DNA of 64,000 nt from Vibrio metschnikovii CIP 69.14. Lineage in GTDB: Bacteria; Pseudomonadota; Gammaproteobacteria; Enterobacterales; Vibrionaceae. The DNA is taken from assembly GCF_000176155.1 (NCBI RefSeq), contig NZ_ACZO01000007.1:620001-684000 (forward strand). Reading direction: 5' to 3'. Shown here one piece after another: positions 27,921-36,591 of this stretch (the stretch's first letter is position 1; every line of letters starts with the position of its first letter). The notes beneath the pieces are model-generated. The model worked only from the letters and a program-made list of their open reading frames with translations. It did no database searches and had not been told where the DNA came from. The translations under genes were made by a program, and so were the position numbers.

Positions 27921-28643
27921 ATGTTTATTCCAAACTTGCCTAGTTTTTTAGAAATCCATTTCTTAACCGTGGATTATTCGTATCACTTCATCAATACCAT
28001 GTTAATGGAGTATACCGAGTTACCTCACACCTTAAATCAAGCGGTATTGAAGCGAAAATGTGAGTTCTTGGCCGGTAGAGTATGTGCACAACGTGGGCTG
28101 AATCAATTGATGGGTTCTCGCGTAGTGAGTATTAAAATCGGAGAACATCGGCAACCGATGTGGCCGACTGGGATAGTTGGGTCTATTTCCCATTGTTTGG
28201 GCTATGCCGTTTCAGCCGTCGGATTTCAAAGCGACGAATGTATCTCAGTTGGAATAGATATTGAGAAAGTCATCACTACGCAATTTGCTAAAGAAATTAC
28301 CAATCAGGTGTTGTCAGAGGGTGAGATGGTTTTCGCAGAACAGTTTGACGAATTTCAATCGTTCTTAACCCTTGTTTTTTCCGCGAAAGAGTCGATTTAT
28401 AAAGCGATTTTTCCTTTTGTAAAACAAGTTTTAGATTTTGACTGTGTACAGTTGATTACTGTGGATCAAAAACAAAAGACATTACAATTTCAGTTTTCTC
28501 CTTTTTTACTTGAGGTTCTCAATTCGAGAGTGACGGTCAACTACCATTTTTGTCAGGCAGATACAGTAGCGACTTGGTGTTTGCTCTCAACAAATCATCT
28601 TCATTTCAGAACGATGAAAGACGCGGTTAACTTGATTGATTGA
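27921..28643 (+). CDS. vabD: EntD-type 4'-phosphopantetheinyl transferase
   Basis: A 240-residue PPTase. It contains RKCEFLAGRVCAQRGL (about residues 46-61), the metal-binding GIDIEKV (about 108-114) and FSAKESIYKA (about 154-163), together with PMWPTGIVGSISHC, all typical of EntD. It converts apo carrier domains of the NRPS and isochorismatase to holo form using CoA. ATG at 27921 is preferred; a TTG ten codons earlier (27891) lacks a ribosome site. It is divergent from the DAHP synthase gene and is the last recognisable siderophore gene before the isonitrile-type locus. Confidence 0.9.
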   Translation: MFIPNLPSFLEIHFLTVDYSYHFINTMLMEYTELPHTLNQAVLKRKCEFLAGRVCAQRGLNQLMGSRVVSIKIGEHRQPMWPTGIVGSISHCLGYAVSAVGFQSDECISVGIDIEKVITTQFAKEITNQVLSEGEMVFAEQFDEFQSFLTLVFSAKESIYKAIFPFVKQVLDFDCVQLITVDQKQKTLQFQFSPFLLEVLNSRVTVNYHFCQADTVATWCLLSTNHLHFRTMKDAVNLID

Positions 28644-28644
28644 A

Positions 28645-28715
28645 GCCGTCGTTGTTTGGGCCTCGTCGTTTATCTCAATCGCATCGTGTGTTCATATTCA
28701 GGCGATTGTTCCTTG
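28645..28715. repeat. Degenerate copy of the Vibrio-type repeat
   Basis: CGTTTATCTCAATCGCATCG and the following GCGATTG resemble the copy at 20432-20527 and, more weakly, the full repeat at 55597-55723. The match is loose. Confidence 0.4.
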
Positions 28716-28719
28716 ATCA

Positions 28720-28753
28720 GTAACGATGGGTTCTATTTTGGCTGTCTAGTCAA
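28720..28753 (+). promoter_or_regulatory. 34-bp element shared with the lysR/pvcA-like promoter region
   Basis: The element reads GTAAC, two bases, TGGGTTCTATTTT, five bases, TCTAGTCAA, and matches 32191-32224 at 28 of 34 positions without gaps. It lies about 65 bases before the PvcB-like start. It is a likely binding site of the locus regulator or a shared promoter. Confidence 0.7.
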
Positions 28754-28818
28754 TACGATACAGAAGGCGAATAATCTGACGGAGAAGTATTGACTAACCC
28801 AGTATGGAGACCGTTGAA

Positions 28819-29667
28819 ATGCCTTATAAAATAACGTCACTCGACCCTTTTGGGGTTATGGTTGAAGCGCAACACTCTTCTACCCATGTTGTTGAGCTTG
28901 ATATATCGAGCTTACGTCATCTGTTTGAGCGTCATCAGCTCGTGCTCTTACGGGGCTTTACGGTTTTTGAACAGGCTGAAGATTTTGCTGATTATTGTGA
29001 GCAATGGGGAGAAGTGAGCATATGGCCGTTTGGCCGAGTACTTGAGCTGATTCAAAAAGAGCAGCCCGAAGATCATATTTTCGACAGCAGTTACATGCCG
29101 ATGCATTGGGATGGTATGTATCGTCCGCAAGTACCGGAATATCAGATTTTCCAATGTGTCGAGGCTCCCTTACCCGGTAATGGTGGACGGACAACGTTTT
29201 GTCATACCATGCTTGCCTTAGACAATGCTTCGGAGCAGGAGCGCTCATTATGGCGGAAAGTGACGGGACACTATCAACGTAAAATGGAGTTTTATCACAG
29301 TAAAACGGTTTCTCCCATCGTGATGCCTCATCCATATAAAGGCTATGACGTCATTCGTTATAACGAACCCCATGTGGTCGACAATGGTGATTTACTTAAT
29401 CCACCAGATGTTACGTTATCGGGCATTTCAGGTAGCGAAGCAATGGCGTGCCATCAAAGTTTACGCCGCGCTTTGTATGACCCACGCAACTTCTATGCAC
29501 ATGAGTGGCAGTCAGGGGACATTGTTATTACTGATAACTTCTCTTTATTACATGGCCGCGAGGCTTTCACATCACATACCCCACGGCATATTCGTCGTGT
29601 GCAGGTTTTAAGCAATCCGCCTTACCATAACCCTAGTTTGGAGTCGTACGAATGTCCGCAAGAGTAG
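28819..29667 (+). CDS. PvcB-like Fe(II)/2-oxoglutarate oxygenase acting on an isonitrile
   Basis: A 282-residue TauD/TfdA-fold oxygenase close to PvcB/IsnB. It has the HxD pair in MPMHWDGMYRPQVPEYQIFQC (His96, Asp98 from this start), GNGGRTTF, the distal His in ITDNFSLLHGRE (His245) and Arg in RHIRRVQV for 2-oxoglutarate. All three iron ligands are present, so it should be active. PvcB-type enzymes desaturate, or decarboxylate and desaturate, an isonitrile-bearing Tyr or Trp. ATG at 28819 is chosen because GGAGA precedes it by nine bases; ATG at 28804 has no ribosome site. It overlaps the next gene by 16 bases, so the two form an operon. Confidence 0.82.
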   Translation: MPYKITSLDPFGVMVEAQHSSTHVVELDISSLRHLFERHQLVLLRGFTVFEQAEDFADYCEQWGEVSIWPFGRVLELIQKEQPEDHIFDSSYMPMHWDGMYRPQVPEYQIFQCVEAPLPGNGGRTTFCHTMLALDNASEQERSLWRKVTGHYQRKMEFYHSKTVSPIVMPHPYKGYDVIRYNEPHVVDNGDLLNPPDVTLSGISGSEAMACHQSLRRALYDPRNFYAHEWQSGDIVITDNFSLLHGREAFTSHTPRHIRRVQVLSNPPYHNPSLESYECPQE

Positions 29668-31130
29668 TTGATATTGTTATTATTGGTGCAGGTCCGGTTG
29701 GTTTAATGAGCGCTTACTTAGCGCAGCGATGTGGATTGAGTACGGTTATCATTGATAAATCGTCAGAGCCATTACAGGTTGGTCGTGCTGATGCGCTTAA
29801 TGCGAGAACGTTACAATTATTAGAAATTGTCGATCTTTTTGAGCCGCTGTATCCACTGGGTAAGCCTTGCAATACCAGTTCCGTATGGGCAGATGGACAA
29901 TTTATTTCCCGCCAATCTTCATGGTGGGAAGCGTTGGAAGGCTGCTTGCATCCGCATTTTTTGATGCTTGGTCAGTCTTATCTTGAGCAGCTACTGGACG
30001 ATAAACTCACGTCATTGAATGCCCCAGTATGGCGTCAAACATCGGTGAAGGATATTGTTATTCATCCAGAGAATTGCCTGACCGAGTTAACCAATGGCGA
30101 GATCATTGAGTCGCGTTTTGTGATTGGTGCCGATGGCGCTCAGTCGTTTGTTCGCCAGCGGTTCACTATTCCCTTCCAGATAGTGCGTCCGGAAATTATT
30201 TGGGCTGTGATTGACGGCGTTATTGACAGTGACTTCCCCAAAGTTCCGGAAATCATCGTCTTTCAAGCAGAGACTTCGGATGTCGCGTGGATTCCTCGTG
30301 AAGGTGACATCGACCGTTTTTATGTCCGAATGGATACGCATGACTTTACCGTAGAGCAAGTGATTGAAAAAATTAATCGTGCCATGGCACCACATCAATT
30401 AAGGTTTAAAAAGAGAGTGTGGTTCTCTCAATTTGCGGTTAAAGAGTCCGTTGCTGAGCGTTATGACATAGAAAATCGCCTCTTTTTAGCCGGAGATGCT
30501 TGTCATGTTCATTCTGTCAATGGCGGGCAAGGTTTGAATACCGGATTAGCCGATGCGTTTAATTTGATCTGGAAACTGAACATGGCCCTAAAAGGTCATA
30601 CGAATGAGTCACTGCTAACCAGCTATCAAGAGGAGCGTCAACCCGTTGCCCAGAGTGTAATTGCCAGCTCGGGTGAGTTAGTGCGCTCGACCAAGTTTTC
30701 TGCAACGAATACTCATGCGCAAGATTACGTGAAAATAGTCGAGAAGCGTTCGGGCAATATTACCGGAATGGGCATTCGTTATGGTGAACAAGGATTAGTC
30801 GGTACGCGGATATTTGATTTTGTATTCAATACGCCAACGCAAAAAACTCGGCTTTATTCATTGCTGGATTATCGTCAATGGACATTATTGATCGCAAGTG
30901 ATACCGATTATGAGTTGAATCTGCCAGAGTTTATTAAGGTGATTCGAATTGGCTCGCGGGCAGAGTATGCTCCTTATTGGACAAGTCAAAATCCATACAC
31001 TGACCAAGCGTTATTAATACGTCCAGATAGCTACATTCATTCAATCAATGGTTTACTTGATTTGAATGCGTGGTTAGCAACCAGTATCGAGGCAATATCG
31101 AATGGTTTATCAGTGCAACCTGAGCTTTAA
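29652..31130 (+). CDS. PheA/TfdB-type FAD monooxygenase (aromatic hydroxylase)
   Basis: A 492-residue class A flavoprotein. FAD motifs are IIGAGPVGLMSAYLAQRCG (about residues 10-28), IGADGAQSFVRQRF (about 158-171) and FLAGDACHVHSVNGGQGLNTG (about 277-297). The C-terminal 100 residues resemble the thioredoxin-like tail of the phenol hydroxylase group. These enzymes use NAD(P)H and O2 to hydroxylate phenols ortho to the OH. Overlap with the oxygenase gene and nearness to a PvcA-like gene suggest that it hydroxylates the ring of a tyrosine-derived isonitrile. It would take the place of PvcC, which belongs to an unrelated flavin family. Substrate is inferred. Confidence 0.85.
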   Translation: MSARVVDIVIIGAGPVGLMSAYLAQRCGLSTVIIDKSSEPLQVGRADALNARTLQLLEIVDLFEPLYPLGKPCNTSSVWADGQFISRQSSWWEALEGCLHPHFLMLGQSYLEQLLDDKLTSLNAPVWRQTSVKDIVIHPENCLTELTNGEIIESRFVIGADGAQSFVRQRFTIPFQIVRPEIIWAVIDGVIDSDFPKVPEIIVFQAETSDVAWIPREGDIDRFYVRMDTHDFTVEQVIEKINRAMAPHQLRFKKRVWFSQFAVKESVAERYDIENRLFLAGDACHVHSVNGGQGLNTGLADAFNLIWKLNMALKGHTNESLLTSYQEERQPVAQSVIASSGELVRSTKFSATNTHAQDYVKIVEKRSGNITGMGIRYGEQGLVGTRIFDFVFNTPTQKTRLYSLLDYRQWTLLIASDTDYELNLPEFIKVIRIGSRAEYAPYWTSQNPYTDQALLIRPDSYIHSINGLLDLNAWLATSIEAISNGLSVQPEL

Positions 31131-31131
31131 G

Positions 31132-31157
31132 CGGTGAGGACGATGATCGTCCTCACC
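31132..31157. terminator. Weak hairpin after the flavin monooxygenase gene
   Basis: GGTGAGGACGA and its inverse form a GC-rich stem two bases past the stop. No T-run follows, so termination is uncertain. Confidence 0.4.
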
Positions 31158-31284
31158 AACAGACAGTTGATGGTGGCGCAAATGATTTGCTTATTTCTTT
31201 GCTACTCATCGACTATCTAAAACGCCAGTGATGTTACCGACGACTCATTTTATGAGGCAAAATAGTCGGGTTGTTTATTCTCCA

Positions 31285-32174
31285 TCATACTTTGAGTGAT
31301 GCTATCAAATAATCAATAAAGCACCGTACACGAGGCGGAATATTTTTTCGACTTGGGTAGAGAATATTCATCGTTGTGCTGACTTGGTAAAAATCGGGAA
31401 ATAACCGAATGAGTGATGGACCGGGGATTTTATCAATTAAAAAATGAGCGATAGGGCCAATCCCTAATCCATTTTGAATCATGGCCATAACACCTAACGG
31501 CGCATTACTGGTGTGTTTAGGTTGTAATTTTATTTGCTGCTCCTGCCCATTATGGTTAGTTAATGTAAGAATATTATTCGGTAAATTTAGCCGAGAGAGG
31601 TAAACCCAGTCGTGATCTTGTAAATCGTCTAGGCAAGTGATCGGCTTGGCGTTATTGAGATAATCTTGACTGGCGTAAATACCTAATTCAAAAGGAGCAA
31701 TCACTCGGCCTACCATCGACGATGACGTCAACTCACCAATTCTAATCACTAAATCGAGGTTAGATTCGACCATATCTTGCAGACCATCATCTAAGCAAAG
31801 ATCAAAATTGACATGTGGATACTGTTGATAAAAGTCATTTAATAATGGATTGATCAGAAAGGTTCCAACGTCAATCGTCGTTCCAATACGAATTGTTCCT
31901 GATATCTCTGACGCTAAATGATTCACTGCTCCCAGTGCTTGATCAGCGATATTCAGTAAGCCACGGCTGTATTGATAAAAAGTGCTTCCCTCGGTGGTCA
32001 AACTAATTTTTCTGGTTGTTCGGTGAAGTAGCCGCACATTAAGTTTTTTTCTAATAGCGTGACTTGTTCACTGACTTTGGATTTCCCCATGCCGAGTGAC
32101 TCTCCTGCTAATGTGAAGGAACCACATTCGACCACTTTATTAAATATGGCAATACGTTTTAATTCATTAAGCAT
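31285..32174 (-). pseudogene. LysR-family regulator of the isonitrile-type locus, broken by a one-base homopolymer deletion
   Basis: The N-terminal helix-turn-helix (MLNELKRIAIFNKVVECG.., KSKVSEQVTLLEK) is in one frame and ends prematurely. The rest of a normal LysR protein (RLLHRTTRKISLTTEG.., VNFDLCLDDG..) continues in another frame from about 32035. Adding one A to the run of seven A (32044-32050, T7 on the plus strand) restores KKLNVRLLHRTTRKIS and a 296-residue protein of normal length. It lies between the two halves of the locus, divergent from the PvcA-like gene, and its start is 17 bases from a 34-bp element shared with the other promoter. As written it cannot make a full protein. Sequencing error, slippage or real decay are all possible. 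Confidence 0.85.
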
Positions 32175-32190
32175 TACTGTTCCCTTATTG

Positions 32191-32224
32191 GTAACTTTGG
32201 GTTCTATTTTTGTCATCTAGTCAA
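32191..32224. promoter_or_regulatory. 34-bp element in the lysR/pvcA-like divergent promoter
   Basis: Second copy of the element at 28720-28753, 28 of 34 identical, in the same orientation. It lies 17 bases upstream of the lysR start and 183 before the PvcA-like start, consistent with autoregulation. Confidence 0.7.
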
Positions 32225-32367
32225 ACTGCGTTGTCATCTAAATAATGACACAGTCGATTAGAGAGAATTTGAATGCTTTGGTTTCGATTTAATAATAATT
32301 AAATTCTTAAACCCCATTTTCATGGGAGCGGTTCCATTTTATGGGTTGACAATAACCTAAATTGTCA
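32210..32367. promoter_or_regulatory. Phased repeats and palindromes upstream of the PvcA-like gene
   Basis: TTGTCATCTA occurs at 32210-32219 and 32231-32240, exactly 21 bp apart. Palindromic CCCATTTTCATGGG at 32313-32326 and CCATTTTATGGG at 32334-32345 are also 21 bp apart. TGTCAT-N7-ATGACA spans 32232-32250 and TGACAAT-N7-ATTGTCA spans 32347-32367. Two-turn phasing and N7 palindromes suggest a LysR-type operator array. Confidence 0.6.
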
Positions 32368-32406
32368 TCGTTTATTCAGTATTATGAAAATAATTAAGGG
32401 CTGGTT

Positions 32407-34233
32407 ATGCTTGATGTTTACCGAGAAACAGAGATAGATAAAATTACGTTTATTTTACTTGACCAAATTATTGCGCAATGTGATGCATCGTATCAAGGGA
32501 TTGCCACACTAAAACAGCAACTGCGTGATTCGATAAGAGAACAGAAAAAAATCAAATTACTATTACCTGCATTCCCATGTAAAACCAATAATTTAGATAA
32601 AGTGATCAGCCATGAGCCAGATATAGGTGAATATCTAGTGTTAAGACGCTTTTTACAGTGTCTTCGTGATATTGAAGCGGTTTATTCTCCAGGGGTCGTC
32701 TTATATATTTTTTCAGACTACCATACATTCTCAGATTATATTGCCGTTGATTTGTCTCATCATTATGCGTATTCTGATGGACTAAAAGAAATGCTTGTCA
32801 ATATGCATGCTGAAGATTTAATAAAAATAATTAATTTTGAAGATTTTAAAGAGTTTGATCATCTTTGTGATACCGAGTATTTTTCTGGATTACGTAATAT
32901 GTTTTCAGAGCCAGGCTATGCGGAAAATTTCACTGAGTTAAAACTTAGGAATAATAAAATGAATCAAACCTATCTAGGTTTGAAAAAATTCATGAATCAA
33001 GATCAAAAATATGTATTGTCAACGCTTTCTTACAAAGAGCGTCGTCGTCGTTTAGCTGAAATTGCTAAAGGAATGATGATACAAGGGAAAGCTCTAGATA
33101 ACTTTCTAAAACAAAAGTTTTCCGATTCGATTCGTTTGAGTATTCATGAACATCCAATGAATGGAAAAAAGTATTCATTATATTTATTTACAGAGCGACA
33201 ATTTAAAACACCTTGGCATAGCACAGTACTTTTTGATGCAAGCCAAGGTAAAGTGATGATTGACACTAAAGAAAACTATCTCAAGCGTACAGGCATTATT
33301 TTACCTATTTTCTATAAGGATAAAACATGGTGTTATTTACAATTAACTTGCGTTGATCAATCAATGAGTCACGTTGTCAGCCAAATTCGAGCAGAGTTAC
33401 ATCATGAAAAAGCAGGTTTACGTTTAATCAGTCCTACACCTTCTTTATCGGCGTCTGTCTTGAACATTAATGAATTGAGCCAACTAGTTAAAGAGTTTGG
33501 TTCGGTGTTATTGCATGGTTTTGCGCCTTTTCATCATCCAGATGATTTTTCGACTTGGTATCTGCAACATCGTTCTGCTGTCATTTTGGATAATGATCGC
33601 GTTGTTGAAAAATTGTCCGGTGATGCGCTACAGCAATCTATTGGTTGGCAATTCGCTACTTTATCTGATGCGATGGCTAATCGAACTTATCGATACGATT
33701 ACGAAGATATTACTCCTCATGAATATGCTCTGTATTGCGCTTATTCAGAAACGCCTATCCATGTGACTACGATAGATGCTGGATTAGCGCCGTTAACCTT
33801 ACGTGGTCAAGAACGTGAGCAACTAAGAAAGAGCATGTTATATCCAATAAAGCATCACCAAGACTACGCTGAGCAGGAATTACCGCCATTGATTCGTTAT
33901 TGCCAAGTATCTCGGCAAGATATTTTGCGCTGGCAGGGTCACTCACGTGGTCAACATTCAACAATACGCTTACCGCAAGTGGATGGGCGTTCAAGTGGAG
34001 AGCCGATTGAACAGCGTCTTGACCATTTATGCACAGAGCCGTCTCTTTGCTTTGAAAATACTTTGGTGGCAGGGGATATTCTTTTCGTAAATAACTTAAC
34101 GACACTGCAAGCGAGCCATTCGTTATCACCGAGTAATCAATGTTGGCGTATTCAATTGCAGCCACCATCGATCAACTCACCATGGCAGCCACACAACCGT
34201 ATGATGCCAAAGGCCGTCAGTGAAGTAGTGTGA
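32407..34233 (+). CDS. PvcA/Dit1 isonitrile synthase fused to a degenerate 2-oxoglutarate oxygenase domain
   Basis: A 608-residue fusion. Residues about 15-330 are a PvcA/Dit1 domain: LLLPAFPCKTNNLDKV (51-66), PDIGEYLVLRRF, IEAVYSPGVVLYIFSDYHTFSD, SIRLSIHEHP (241-250) and TPWHSTVLFD (268-277). Members make an isonitrile from the amino group of Tyr or Trp with a pentose phosphate carbon. Residues about 350-590 follow the TauD fold and can be lined up with the neighbouring PvcB-like protein (SVLLHGF, ITPHEYALYCAYSE, GDILFVNN, WRIQL). However, the HxD position reads RYD (429-431) and the distal His position reads Gln, so metal binding is probably lost. ATG at 32407 has AAGGG six bases before it. 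The N-terminal part looks AT-richer than the siderophore genes. Substrate unknown. Confidence 0.8.
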   Translation: MLDVYRETEIDKITFILLDQIIAQCDASYQGIATLKQQLRDSIREQKKIKLLLPAFPCKTNNLDKVISHEPDIGEYLVLRRFLQCLRDIEAVYSPGVVLYIFSDYHTFSDYIAVDLSHHYAYSDGLKEMLVNMHAEDLIKIINFEDFKEFDHLCDTEYFSGLRNMFSEPGYAENFTELKLRNNKMNQTYLGLKKFMNQDQKYVLSTLSYKERRRRLAEIAKGMMIQGKALDNFLKQKFSDSIRLSIHEHPMNGKKYSLYLFTERQFKTPWHSTVLFDASQGKVMIDTKENYLKRTGIILPIFYKDKTWCYLQLTCVDQSMSHVVSQIRAELHHEKAGLRLISPTPSLSASVLNINELSQLVKEFGSVLLHGFAPFHHPDDFSTWYLQHRSAVILDNDRVVEKLSGDALQQSIGWQFATLSDAMANRTYRYDYEDITPHEYALYCAYSETPIHVTTIDAGLAPLTLRGQEREQLRKSMLYPIKHHQDYAEQELPPLIRYCQVSRQDILRWQGHSRGQHSTIRLPQVDGRSSGEPIEQRLDHLCTEPSLCFENTLVAGDILFVNNLTTLQASHSLSPSNQCWRIQLQPPSINSPWQPHNRMMPKAVSEVV

Positions 34234-34253
34234 AGATAAATTGATGTATGGAT

Positions 34254-34289
34254 AAAAGGCACAGCAGCTTATCACACTGGGTGCCTTTT
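34254..34289 (+). terminator. Terminator after the PvcA-like gene
   Basis: AAAAGGCAC and GTGCCTTTT form an inverted pair around an 18-base loop, 20 bases past the stop. Confidence 0.6.
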
Positions 34290-34381: not shown

Positions 34382-35311
34382 TTAACTAACAGCCTGACCA
34401 AGAGCAATAAAAAATGGCACGTTAAATAGGACATTAAAAGGAAAAGTAATGCCTAATGCCGCGGTGATCGACATCCCTGCATTGGCTTCGGGCAGACTTT
34501 CTTTCATCGCGGCCGGGACAGCAATATACGATGCGCTGGCTCCAAGTACCGCCATCAGCGTGATGCCGCCAGCGCTAAACCCAAGTAGCATGCCGAGCCC
34601 TGTACCGGCTAACCCGCCAATCATCGGCATTAAAATAGCAAAGCTGATTAAAAATAGGCTGTTATCTCTAAGCGTTGCTAATTGCTGACCGGCAATTAAG
34701 CCCATTTTCAGAAGAAATAACGCTAAAATAGCCGAGAAAAGGTCAATAAACAGTGGCGAAAGCTTGTATACGGTATCGCCACCTACATAACCAATCACTA
34801 AACTGCCGATCATCAATAGCAGGCTTGGATTGGCGAGGAGTTCTTTTTTAAGAAAGTGACGATTAATCAGCGATACACTGCCTTTGGCGAGAATTAAACC
34901 AACGATGATCGCTGGCATCTCCAATAACACGACAAACAGAGGGAAGTAAGCTTCATACGGGATCTGCTTGGCTTCAAGTAGAGCAACCGCGACGGCATAA
35001 GTAGCGACACTGACCGAGCCATAGTGAGCAGCAATGGCACCGGCATTAATCTTATCTAATTGACCAAAATATCTCAGCAGTGGGTAAGCAATCAGAGGTA
35101 GCAACAAACCGAATGCCACCACAATCAAAGCCATCACGACTAAGCTGGCCGCGATATGTGCTTGTAAAGCAATACCGCCTTTAAGGCCTATCGCAATCAT
35201 CAGTATCAGACTGAGGGTTTTATACAGGTTATCTGGGAAAGGAATTTTTGCGCCCAGTAGCTGGCAGACAATACCCAGGATAAAAAAAGCAATCACCGCA
35301 TCAAGCACCAT
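34382..35311 (-). CDS. SbtA-like sodium-dependent bicarbonate transporter
   Basis: A 309-residue membrane protein with about ten hydrophobic helices in two inverted halves. Stretches such as LSLILMIAIGLKGGIAL, HYGSVSVATYAVAV (about 97-110), VVLLEMPAIIVGLILAKGS and LGASASYIAVPAAMKESLPEANAGMSITAALGITFPFNV are characteristic of SbtA (formerly DUF897). The family imports HCO3- with Na+. Its start overlaps the upstream small membrane protein by 11 bases. A CbbR-like LysR gene is divergent. No PII-like SbtB partner is seen next to it, unlike in cyanobacteria. Confidence 0.85.
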   Translation of the reverse strand: MVLDAVIAFFILGIVCQLLGAKIPFPDNLYKTLSLILMIAIGLKGGIALQAHIAASLVVMALIVVAFGLLLPLIAYPLLRYFGQLDKINAGAIAAHYGSVSVATYAVAVALLEAKQIPYEAYFPLFVVLLEMPAIIVGLILAKGSVSLINRHFLKKELLANPSLLLMIGSLVIGYVGGDTVYKLSPLFIDLFSAILALFLLKMGLIAGQQLATLRDNSLFLISFAILMPMIGGLAGTGLGMLLGFSAGGITLMAVLGASASYIAVPAAMKESLPEANAGMSITAALGITFPFNVLFNVPFFIALGQAVS

Positions 35312-35531
35312 GTTTAGTGCTCTCCTTGCTTGTTAAGCTGATGGTGTGCATTTTTGTTTTGCCAGAACGATTAAACGCGGTTTTAACCCCTTGGAATGCC
35401 GTATAACTTGCTAGTAAAGTAGCACAAACAAGAAAACTAAACGTGTTATGCCCGATGGACAAACCTAAATAGTAGAAGGTTACTAGCATCATCACTGTGG
35501 TCATTGGCAGTGCCATTGTACGAAATCTCAT
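35301..35531 (-). CDS. Small two-helix membrane protein co-encoded with the SbtA-like carrier
   Basis: About 76 residues, MRFRTMALPMTTVMMLVTFYYLGLSIGH.., with hydrophobic segments at about 7-27 and 29-50 and a basic tail KTAFNRSGKTKMHTISL. I do not recognise a named family. ATG at 35531 is chosen because GGAG lies 7-8 bases upstream; ATG at 35558 has none. It overlaps the carrier gene, suggesting a subunit or regulator of that carrier (inference). Confidence 0.65.
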   Translation of the reverse strand: MRFRTMALPMTTVMMLVTFYYLGLSIGHNTFSFLVCATLLASYTAFQGVKTAFNRSGKTKMHTISLTSKESTKHGA

Positions 35532-35655
35532 CACACTCTCCTGCAAATTTTTCAGCATGTTATGCTGTTTTAATAATAGATAAAAATAGATAATTACTAA
35601 CTTTTATATAGATAATGCTCTATATTATCTCGGTAAACTTGGTTGGAGGTGAGCA

Positions 35656-36591
35656 GTGGCATCGAGATTACACGCCCATATTGGCACGTTTCGCCAGCTA
35701 GAGATCTTATTAGCGGTTTATCATGGCGGAAGTATTACGGCTGCGGCAGACAGCTTGTTTTTAACTCAACCTACGGTTTCTATGCAGTTAAAAAAGCTTG
35801 CTGAGGCGATAGGCTTACCGCTTTATCAACAAGTTGGTAGAACACTTCGTTTTACCGATGCTGGATTAGCCACGGTAGAAACGGCGAAAAAAGTTCTCCA
35901 AAACTGTGAAGAATTGGACATGCGTCTGTCGCGTTTAAAAGGCCTTGAGTCGGGAACGCTCAAATTAGCGGTGGTCACCACGGCAAAGTATTTTATTCCT
36001 CATTTACTTGGCCCTTTTTGTCAGCGCTACCCCGGCATCGATATTCAATTGACGATCGCCAACCGGCAGCAAGTGATGGAGCGCTGTGAGAATGGTGCCG
36101 ATGATTTTTATGTGTTTAGTCATTTACCCGAAGGCTTAGAGCTGGACGTGATTGAATTTATGGCCAATGATTTGGTGGCGATTGCCGCGGCGAGCCACCC
36201 TTTCACACAGCAAGAGAGCGTGTCATTAGCCGAGTTTTGTCAGGAAGATTTTTTGATCCGTGAAGTGGGCTCGGGAACCCGCTATGCAACGGAAGCTTTC
36301 TTTAAGAAACAAGCCTATCAGCCTAATATTAAAATGACGATTGCCAGTAATGAGGCGATTATTCATTCCGTATTAGCTCGCTTGGGGGTCTCTATTTTAT
36401 CTGCTCATACCTTGGCGTTTGGTAATATATACGGTGTTCAAGTGATTAATGTTGAGTCGTTACCGATCAAAACCAGATGGTCATTCTCGTGGACTCGGCA
36501 GCGCGCCTTATCGCCGATTGCCGAGGTTTTTCTCAATTATGTGCAAACAGAAGGGCGTGAAATCATTCAGAAAACGGTGCAATTGTCATAG
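35656..36591 (+). CDS. LysR-family regulator, CbbR-like, divergent from the bicarbonate carrier
   Basis: A 311-residue LysR protein. The N-terminal HTH (FRQLEILLAVYHGGSITAAADSLFLTQPTVSMQLKKLAEAIG, about residues 13-55) and effector domain (GTLKLAVVTTAKYFIPHLLGPFCQRYPGIDIQL) are close to the CbbR group that controls CO2-related genes. GTG at 35656 is supported by GGAGGT six bases upstream. The AT-rich 97-bp gap between it and the small membrane protein ORF is a likely two-way promoter. Predicted role is control of the SbtA-like operon in response to carbon status (inference). Confidence 0.85.
   Translation: MASRLHAHIGTFRQLEILLAVYHGGSITAAADSLFLTQPTVSMQLKKLAEAIGLPLYQQVGRTLRFTDAGLATVETAKKVLQNCEELDMRLSRLKGLESGTLKLAVVTTAKYFIPHLLGPFCQRYPGIDIQLTIANRQQVMERCENGADDFYVFSHLPEGLELDVIEFMANDLVAIAAASHPFTQQESVSLAEFCQEDFLIREVGSGTRYATEAFFKKQAYQPNIKMTIASNEAIIHSVLARLGVSILSAHTLAFGNIYGVQVINVESLPIKTRWSFSWTRQRALSPIAEVFLNYVQTEGREIIQKTVQLS

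Follow-up and report, generated by a model that had tools for sequence, protein, structure and literature searches.

We analysed a 64,000-nucleotide (nt) stretch of the Vibrio metschnikovii CIP 69.14 genome (contig NZ_ACZO01000007.1, positions 620,001 to 684,000; hereafter the window, whose own numbering is used throughout), focusing on a putative isonitrile biosynthetic module at 28804-34233. The module consists of an isonitrile synthase fused to an oxygenase-like domain, a separate PvcB-family oxygenase, a flavin hydroxylase and a LysR regulator, and the remaining open reading frames of at least 80 amino acids (aa) in this interval overlap these four genes in other frames. Its first gene begins 160 bp past the phosphopantetheinyl transferase (PPTase) gene, ending at 28643, that closes a siderophore locus. 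Those window proteins that were compared with V. injensis are 94-100% identical (L006; G and L handles denote the genomes and fetched stretches used for comparison). The features are:

28707-28753, + strand: LysR-operator-like repeat, copy 5' of the PvcB-hydroxylase pair, 79% identical over 47 nt to 32178-32224.
28804-29667 (alternative start 28819), + strand: standalone Fe(II)/2-oxoglutarate oxygenase of the PvcB/PIsnB family, with H101, D103, R107, N187 (the N188 equivalent), H250 and R265.
29652-31130, + strand: class-A flavin adenine dinucleotide (FAD) aromatic hydroxylase, NF005531/PRK07190; its start overlaps the end of the PvcB gene by 16 nt.
31285-32174 (open frame 31285-32037 only), - strand: LysR regulator, frameshifted in a homopolymer run; intact in V. 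injensis.
32178-32224, + strand: LysR-operator-like repeat between LysR and the fusion gene, source of the 17-base core.
32407-33381, + strand: isonitrile synthase domain (PF05141), fusion residues 1-325, from the profile match and invariant columns.
33382-34233, + strand: C-terminal PvcB-like pseudo-oxygenase domain with the triad lost, from hhalign and residues.

The 32407-34233 protein matched PF05141 over residues 41-289 (8.9e-61; 206.2 bits against a gathering score of 26.4), and its closest solved chains were L-Tyr/L-Trp isonitrile synthase family proteins (4.4e-23) and PvcA 3e59 (3.6e-22). An alignment of 21 synthase sequences (the window's fusion, the 10 other Vibrio fusions and 10 further rows; two divergent G938 rows were left out) had 28 invariant columns. 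The synthase half has a G+C content of 32.8% against 43.1% for the window, and its G+C is also below that of the oxygenase half in all 11 fusions; because this AT-richness is seen in every one of them, it says little about origin. The separate oxygenase matched PvcB 3eat (3.9e-81) and 7tcl (1.1e-73), and the hydroxylase scored 888.9 bits to NF005531/PRK07190 (cut-off 530) besides matching PF01494. The preliminary description had placed a PvcA/Dit1-type protein, an intact PvcB-like oxygenase, an aromatic flavin hydroxylase and a LysR gene directly after the last siderophore gene. The position and the three enzymes, including the clear PF05141 match of the synthase, were borne out. The LysR gene is there too, but not intact: a homopolymer-run frameshift (~32045) cuts off the start at 32174 and leaves an open frame without the DNA-binding N-terminus.

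The central observation, which the preliminary description does not spell out, concerns the C-terminal half of the fusion, in which the oxygenase active site is degenerate. Residues ~335-608 correspond to PvcB: hhalign matched the nine degenerate domains to the PvcB family with a probability of 99.3 and E 3.5e-20. In the window, GWQ replaces HWD and Gln replaces the distal His. Searching 227 Vibrio genomes with a full-fusion model, we found the fusion in 11; a twelfth row, G666, was a weak TauD-only match and was dropped from the count. In nine of the 11 fusion genomes a PvcB and an NF005531 hydroxylase lie adjacent, and all nine have lost both the HxD Asp and the distal His from the fused domain. 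Both residues are kept in the two fusion genomes that lack the PvcB and hydroxylase genes (G174 and G636: MHWD, VHGR). The TauD (PF02668) scores of these two intact domains were 77.0 and 72.2 bits, against 14.2 (window), 16.0, 16.0, 31.3, 33.9 and 43.3 for six representative degenerate copies, three of which lie above and three, the window's included, below the gathering score of 27.

Co-occurrence of the module genes is tight. NF005531 hydroxylases scored above cut-off in 9/227 Vibrio genomes, the same nine that carry the module, and in each of them the hydroxylase gene overlaps that of PvcB by either 4 or 16 nt. The four-gene set that the preliminary description proposed to look for in other Vibrio is present as synthase, oxygenase and hydroxylase in these nine genomes and extends to LysR in eight. 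G174 and G636 carry LysR and the fusion but no other module gene, and a genome-wide search of both for PvcB at E 0.001 matched nothing but the fusion. The synthase half, PvcB and hydroxylase agree in their nearest relatives (G187 and G634 are mutually nearest, G627, G628 and G629 group, and the window's closest after V. injensis is G649), a shared pattern that fits joint inheritance. No fusion was recognised outside Vibrio in 394 order-level and 398 phylum-level sampled genomes, which included the window's own and other Vibrio genomes. PvcA frames in these samples spanned 286-477 aa, save the window's, that of G938 (879 aa, a different fusion) and that of G954 (657 aa, scoring under the cut-off); the inspection for fusions did not extend to G954 and G1375 (477 aa). 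A class-level search with the fusion model matched 4 of 369 genomes, its own included.

We compared substitution in the two halves of the fusion. In the intact pair, G174 and G636, the oxygenase half is the more conserved (95% vs 91% identity; nonsynonymous divergence, dN, 0.031 vs 0.050, ratio ~0.6). The order is reversed in the distant triad-lost pairs, where oxygenase and synthase halves are 47% and 82% identical for G187-G634 (dN 0.525/0.116, ratio 4.5) and 47% and 69% for the window and G649 (0.509/0.218, ratio 2.3). Three recent triad-lost pairs gave dN of 0.025/0.014, 0.018/0.008 and 0.005/0.004 (ratios 1.8, 2.2 and 1.2), with ratios of nonsynonymous to synonymous divergence (dN/dS) of 0.120, 0.090 and 0.072 for the oxygenase half and 0.148, 0.109 and 0.085 for the synthase half. 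The degenerate domain has lost its catalytic residues but still evolves under some constraint, and it remains under purifying selection.

These data bear on two other accounts of the domain. It could be a decaying remnant that no longer serves any structural or docking purpose, which would agree with the 2.3-4.5-fold higher dN of the oxygenase half in distant pairs and with the sub-gathering TauD scores of half the representative copies. We regard this as rather unlikely: the frame is open, free of internal stops, in 9/9 genomes, dN/dS in the three recent pairs is not above that of the synthase half, and the terminal motif NSPWQ(P/A)(H/Y)N is kept in 11/11 fusions. The domain could also still be a catalyst, using altered metal ligands or working as a cofactor-independent enzyme. 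The purifying selection would suit such an enzyme, as would the Arg265 equivalent, kept in 6/9 degenerate copies (lost in G157, unclear in G187 and G634). The Asp, however, has given way to Q, A, N or G, and Q, L, R or I stand in place of the distal His, the residues varying by lineage. The first His remains in 5/9. We consider continued catalysis highly improbable.

The standalone oxygenase carries all the PIsnB-type markers, namely the HxD...H triad (H101, D103, H250), R265, R107 and, at the 188 position, N187. The PvcB-type markers Leu107 and Cys188 are not found in it, Arg and Asn standing in their places. According to the available part of PMC9467999, Lys/Arg107 with Asn/His188 is associated with decarboxylating vinyl-isonitrile formation, and Leu107 with Cys188 with isocyanoacrylate. 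Arg107 occurs in 8/8 and Asn at 188 in 7/8 of the tabulated Vibrio PvcBs; the split PvcB of G187 was omitted from both tree and residue table. In that genome (L010, 11283-12181) the standalone PvcB lies in two overlapping frames, a frameshift or an assembly error. The tree joined the Vibrio PvcBs to the oxygenases of G860, G958, G977, G992 and G813 (support 100/99). All five of their clusters have a glycosyltransferase gene beside PvcA and PvcB, and we infer that they are of the rhabduscin type. An origin of the standalone PvcB as a recent duplicate of the fused domain was rejected, the two sets being split with 100/100 support (the program warns of long branches).

We consider it likely that the module as a whole is an isonitrile pathway in which a disabled fused oxygenase has been replaced by a separate one; the fused half apparently lost its iron-binding residues because the separate, intact oxygenase does that job. 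From the enzyme families, the module very probably makes a reactive isonitrile from an aromatic amino acid, and our best guess for the product is a ring-hydroxylated vinyl isonitrile. The N-terminal half of the fusion would act on an aromatic L-amino acid, more likely Tyr than Trp, and turn its amino group into an isonitrile. The separate PIsnB-type oxygenase, with Fe(II), O2 and 2-oxoglutarate, would then decarboxylate and desaturate this intermediate to the vinyl isonitrile, and the flavin hydroxylase would hydroxylate the ring, the most likely result being a catechol-type isocyanovinyl compound. The preliminary description had proposed a tyrosine-derived, ring-hydroxylated vinyl or acyl isonitrile. 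Family membership and active-site residues are in keeping with its synthesis, desaturation and ring hydroxylation steps, and of its two products the vinyl form is preferred over the acyl form, R107 and the N188 equivalent being residues of the PIsnB type.

A synthase that instead yields an N-formyl amino acid would change the first step. PF05141 includes Dit1, for which the yeast enzyme is reported to do this in the available part of PMC10153163. The closest solved relatives of the window's synthase are nevertheless bacterial isonitrile synthases, and its partner oxygenase belongs to an isonitrile-desaturating family, although PvcB-family oxygenases also take N-formyl tyrosine in vitro (PMC9467999, text available in part). 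We judge an N-formyl route very unlikely.

In the preferred pathway, the C-terminal half of the fusion would descend from an oxygenase that once performed the second step in cis, as the G174 and G636 fusions presumably still do. Where the separate oxygenase-hydroxylase pair is present, the fused domain would have lost its iron site and persisted without catalytic function, probably in a structural or docking role. Only tentatively do we suggest a more specific history: a separate enzyme took over the second step in trans, and the displaced catalytic domain survived as a pseudo-oxygenase to which the new oxygenase docks and which passes on the unstable isonitrile amino acid, with G174 and G636 representing the state before and the genomes with the separate pair the state after.

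Both transcription units may be governed by LysR through a common operator. The 47-nt repeat at 28707-28753, 5' of PvcB, recurs at 32178-32224 in the gap between LysR and the fusion gene. A 17-base core lies upstream of LysR, in the same orientation, in 8/8 module genomes with LysR (exact in two, including the window; one to three mismatches in six). A second core copy precedes PvcB in the window, V. injensis and G649, the three genomes with LysR between the hydroxylase and fusion genes. The window's PvcB-side copy departs from the core at four positions; two to three matches of that quality are expected by chance per 64 kb, so this copy rests on the 47-nt repeat and on its recurrence. In G157 only a chance-level match was seen.

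Several points weigh against the replacement pathway or its details. The correlation between triad loss and PvcB is a single phylogenetic contrast, G174 and G636 being sisters, and is no proof of cause; 8/20 inner branches of the synthase tree are open and its outgroup branch is very long, so its rooting is unsure. Relaxation is visible in the distant pairs only, because dN/dS of the oxygenase half does not exceed that of the synthase half in the recent pairs, and in the distant pairs synonymous divergence (dS) is saturated. The synthase scored 99.5 bits against the L-tyrosine isonitrile synthase equivalog NF045653, missing the cut-off of 600, so the amino acid substrate is not fixed. Ala occupies the N188 position in the G634 PvcB and the G187 fragment, and single swaps at the marker residues left product type unchanged (PMC9467999, available in part). 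As to regulation, the window's LysR looks broken, which could be an assembly error; in G157 no LysR gene turned up next to the module, nor did the operator core match anything near LysR in G174 or G636. AlphaFold2 modelling of the fusion with four aligned sequences gave a mean confidence score (pLDDT) of 35.7 and no usable structure.

The upstream locus encodes a 2,3-dihydroxybenzoate siderophore pathway: a 2822-aa nonribosomal peptide synthetase, enterobactin-type transport genes, an EntE-like ligase, isochorismate synthase, an EntA/DhbA-like dehydrogenase, 3-deoxy-D-arabino-heptulosonate 7-phosphate (DAHP) synthase and the terminal PPTase gene. Using a 19-bp consensus that we take to represent the Fur site, at a threshold of five or fewer mismatches, we obtained 13 matches on both strands of 20-40 kb against 2.2 expected (five shuffles). 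Fur-like sites lie at the siderophore promoters (21712, 21765, 25716 and 27741, with more outside 20-28 kb), and none at this threshold falls within 28644-34289. Co-regulation with the siderophore was rejected as a link. This siderophore locus adjoins the module in 2/9 carriers, the window and the near-identical V. injensis. Relatives of the siderophore genes are found in L075 and L076, where the 20 kb fetched contained no module.

In five of the nine carriers (G187, G634, G627, G628 and G629) the module adjoins a gene for a conserved protein of ~870 aa, which is not in the stretches of the window, V. injensis, G649 and G157. A Pfam scan of this protein gave a lamin tail domain only, and nothing to back the label 'exonuclease-like'. 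In G649 (L047, 15615-19895) a TonB siderophore receptor gene (TIGR01783 above cut-off) lies ~2 kb and an N-monooxygenase-like gene, under its family cut-off, ~4 kb from PvcB, and given this receptor a loose module-siderophore association may exist. The siderophore and isonitrile loci 'welded' together, as the preliminary description had it, gained no support as one functional unit, with the module lying elsewhere in 7/9 carriers, having its own operator-like repeat and lacking Fur-like sites at the threshold used. We read the adjacency as a local juxtaposition; any preference of the module for places near iron genes would be weak at best.

A paerucumarin-like route, in which ring hydroxylation of an isocyanoacrylate gives an acyl or coumarin-type isonitrile that serves iron handling together with the siderophore, would draw on similar enzyme classes, on the adjoining siderophore locus in the window and on the G649 receptor gene. 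The PIsnB-type Arg/Asn in place of Leu107/Cys188 and the lack of Fur-like sites in the module at five mismatches or fewer speak against it, as do the ~20 kb fetched from six other carriers, in which the window's siderophore genes found no match at 1e-5 save a weak EntE ligase likeness (28-29%) ~9 kb off in L050 and L051. We hold this route to be unlikely.

Downstream of the module, at 34382-36591, an Sbt_1-type transporter gene stands beside a divergent LysR gene; this pair is also close together in L077 (G149) and L078 (G621), which have neither module nor siderophore genes. Two other clusters, L072 (3503-6497) and L073 (3929-6902), differ in their third enzyme: PvcA-PvcB is followed by a cytochrome P450 gene, unlike the flavin hydroxylase or glycosyltransferase types. 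L070 (G938, C15; 3587-10307) encodes, adjacently, a cNMP-binding-PvcA-DUF924 fusion (861 aa), a second PvcA, an O-methyltransferase and a PvcB-cytochrome P450 fusion (~697 aa), a cluster that we take to be xanthocillin-like.

Isonitriles are rare, metal-binding, bioactive groups. Their clusters are missed by common genome-mining software, according to the available part of PMC10153163. The Vibrio set amounts to a natural experiment, offering one fused enzyme with a seemingly live or a disabled second domain, the disabled state occurring, in the genomes seen, only alongside the separate oxygenase-hydroxylase pair. It makes testable whether a dead catalytic domain can act as a partner platform, and module content would predict which Vibrio make hydroxylated and which plain vinyl isonitriles.

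Fused synthase-oxygenases are already known, and we found no description of the replaced, disabled form: among the open-access papers searched, no title dealt with a Vibrio synthase-oxygenase-hydroxylase module or with an oxygenase domain that has been disabled, and the search did not reach most of the subscription literature. Two-domain synthase-dioxygenases occur in bacteria, for example V. cholerae IsnAB (PMC5974471, seen in part); the available part of PMC5816637 lists V. cholerae VC1949 as pvcA, and we assume VC1949 to be the IsnAB gene. Like these ICS-DOX enzymes (V. cholerae IsnAB and A. fumigatus XanB/IcsB in the accessible text of PMC5974471), thus known in Vibrio, the window's fusion joins a PF05141 synthase to a PvcB/TauD-like domain in one chain. 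It would differ from them in that its oxygenase half lacks the Fe-binding triad and scores 14.2 bits against the TauD gathering score of 27 (homologous by hhalign, 99.3%), and in the addition of a separate PIsnB-type oxygenase and a hydroxylase. With the rhabduscin genes isnA-isnB of Photorhabdus and Xenorhabdus (PIsnB, PDB 7tcl) the module shares the PIsnB marker residues of its standalone oxygenase; unlike them it has no glycosyltransferase gene, four genes filling 28804-34233, its synthase is a fusion on another transcription unit, and an NF005531 hydroxylase is present. With P. aeruginosa pvcABCD (paerucumarin; as far as PMC3639982 is available) it has in common a synthase, an oxygenase, tailoring genes and a LysR regulator (PtxR in Pseudomonas), and it departs from that cluster in a PIsnB-type rather than PvcB-type oxygenase, a fused synthase and a different gene order.

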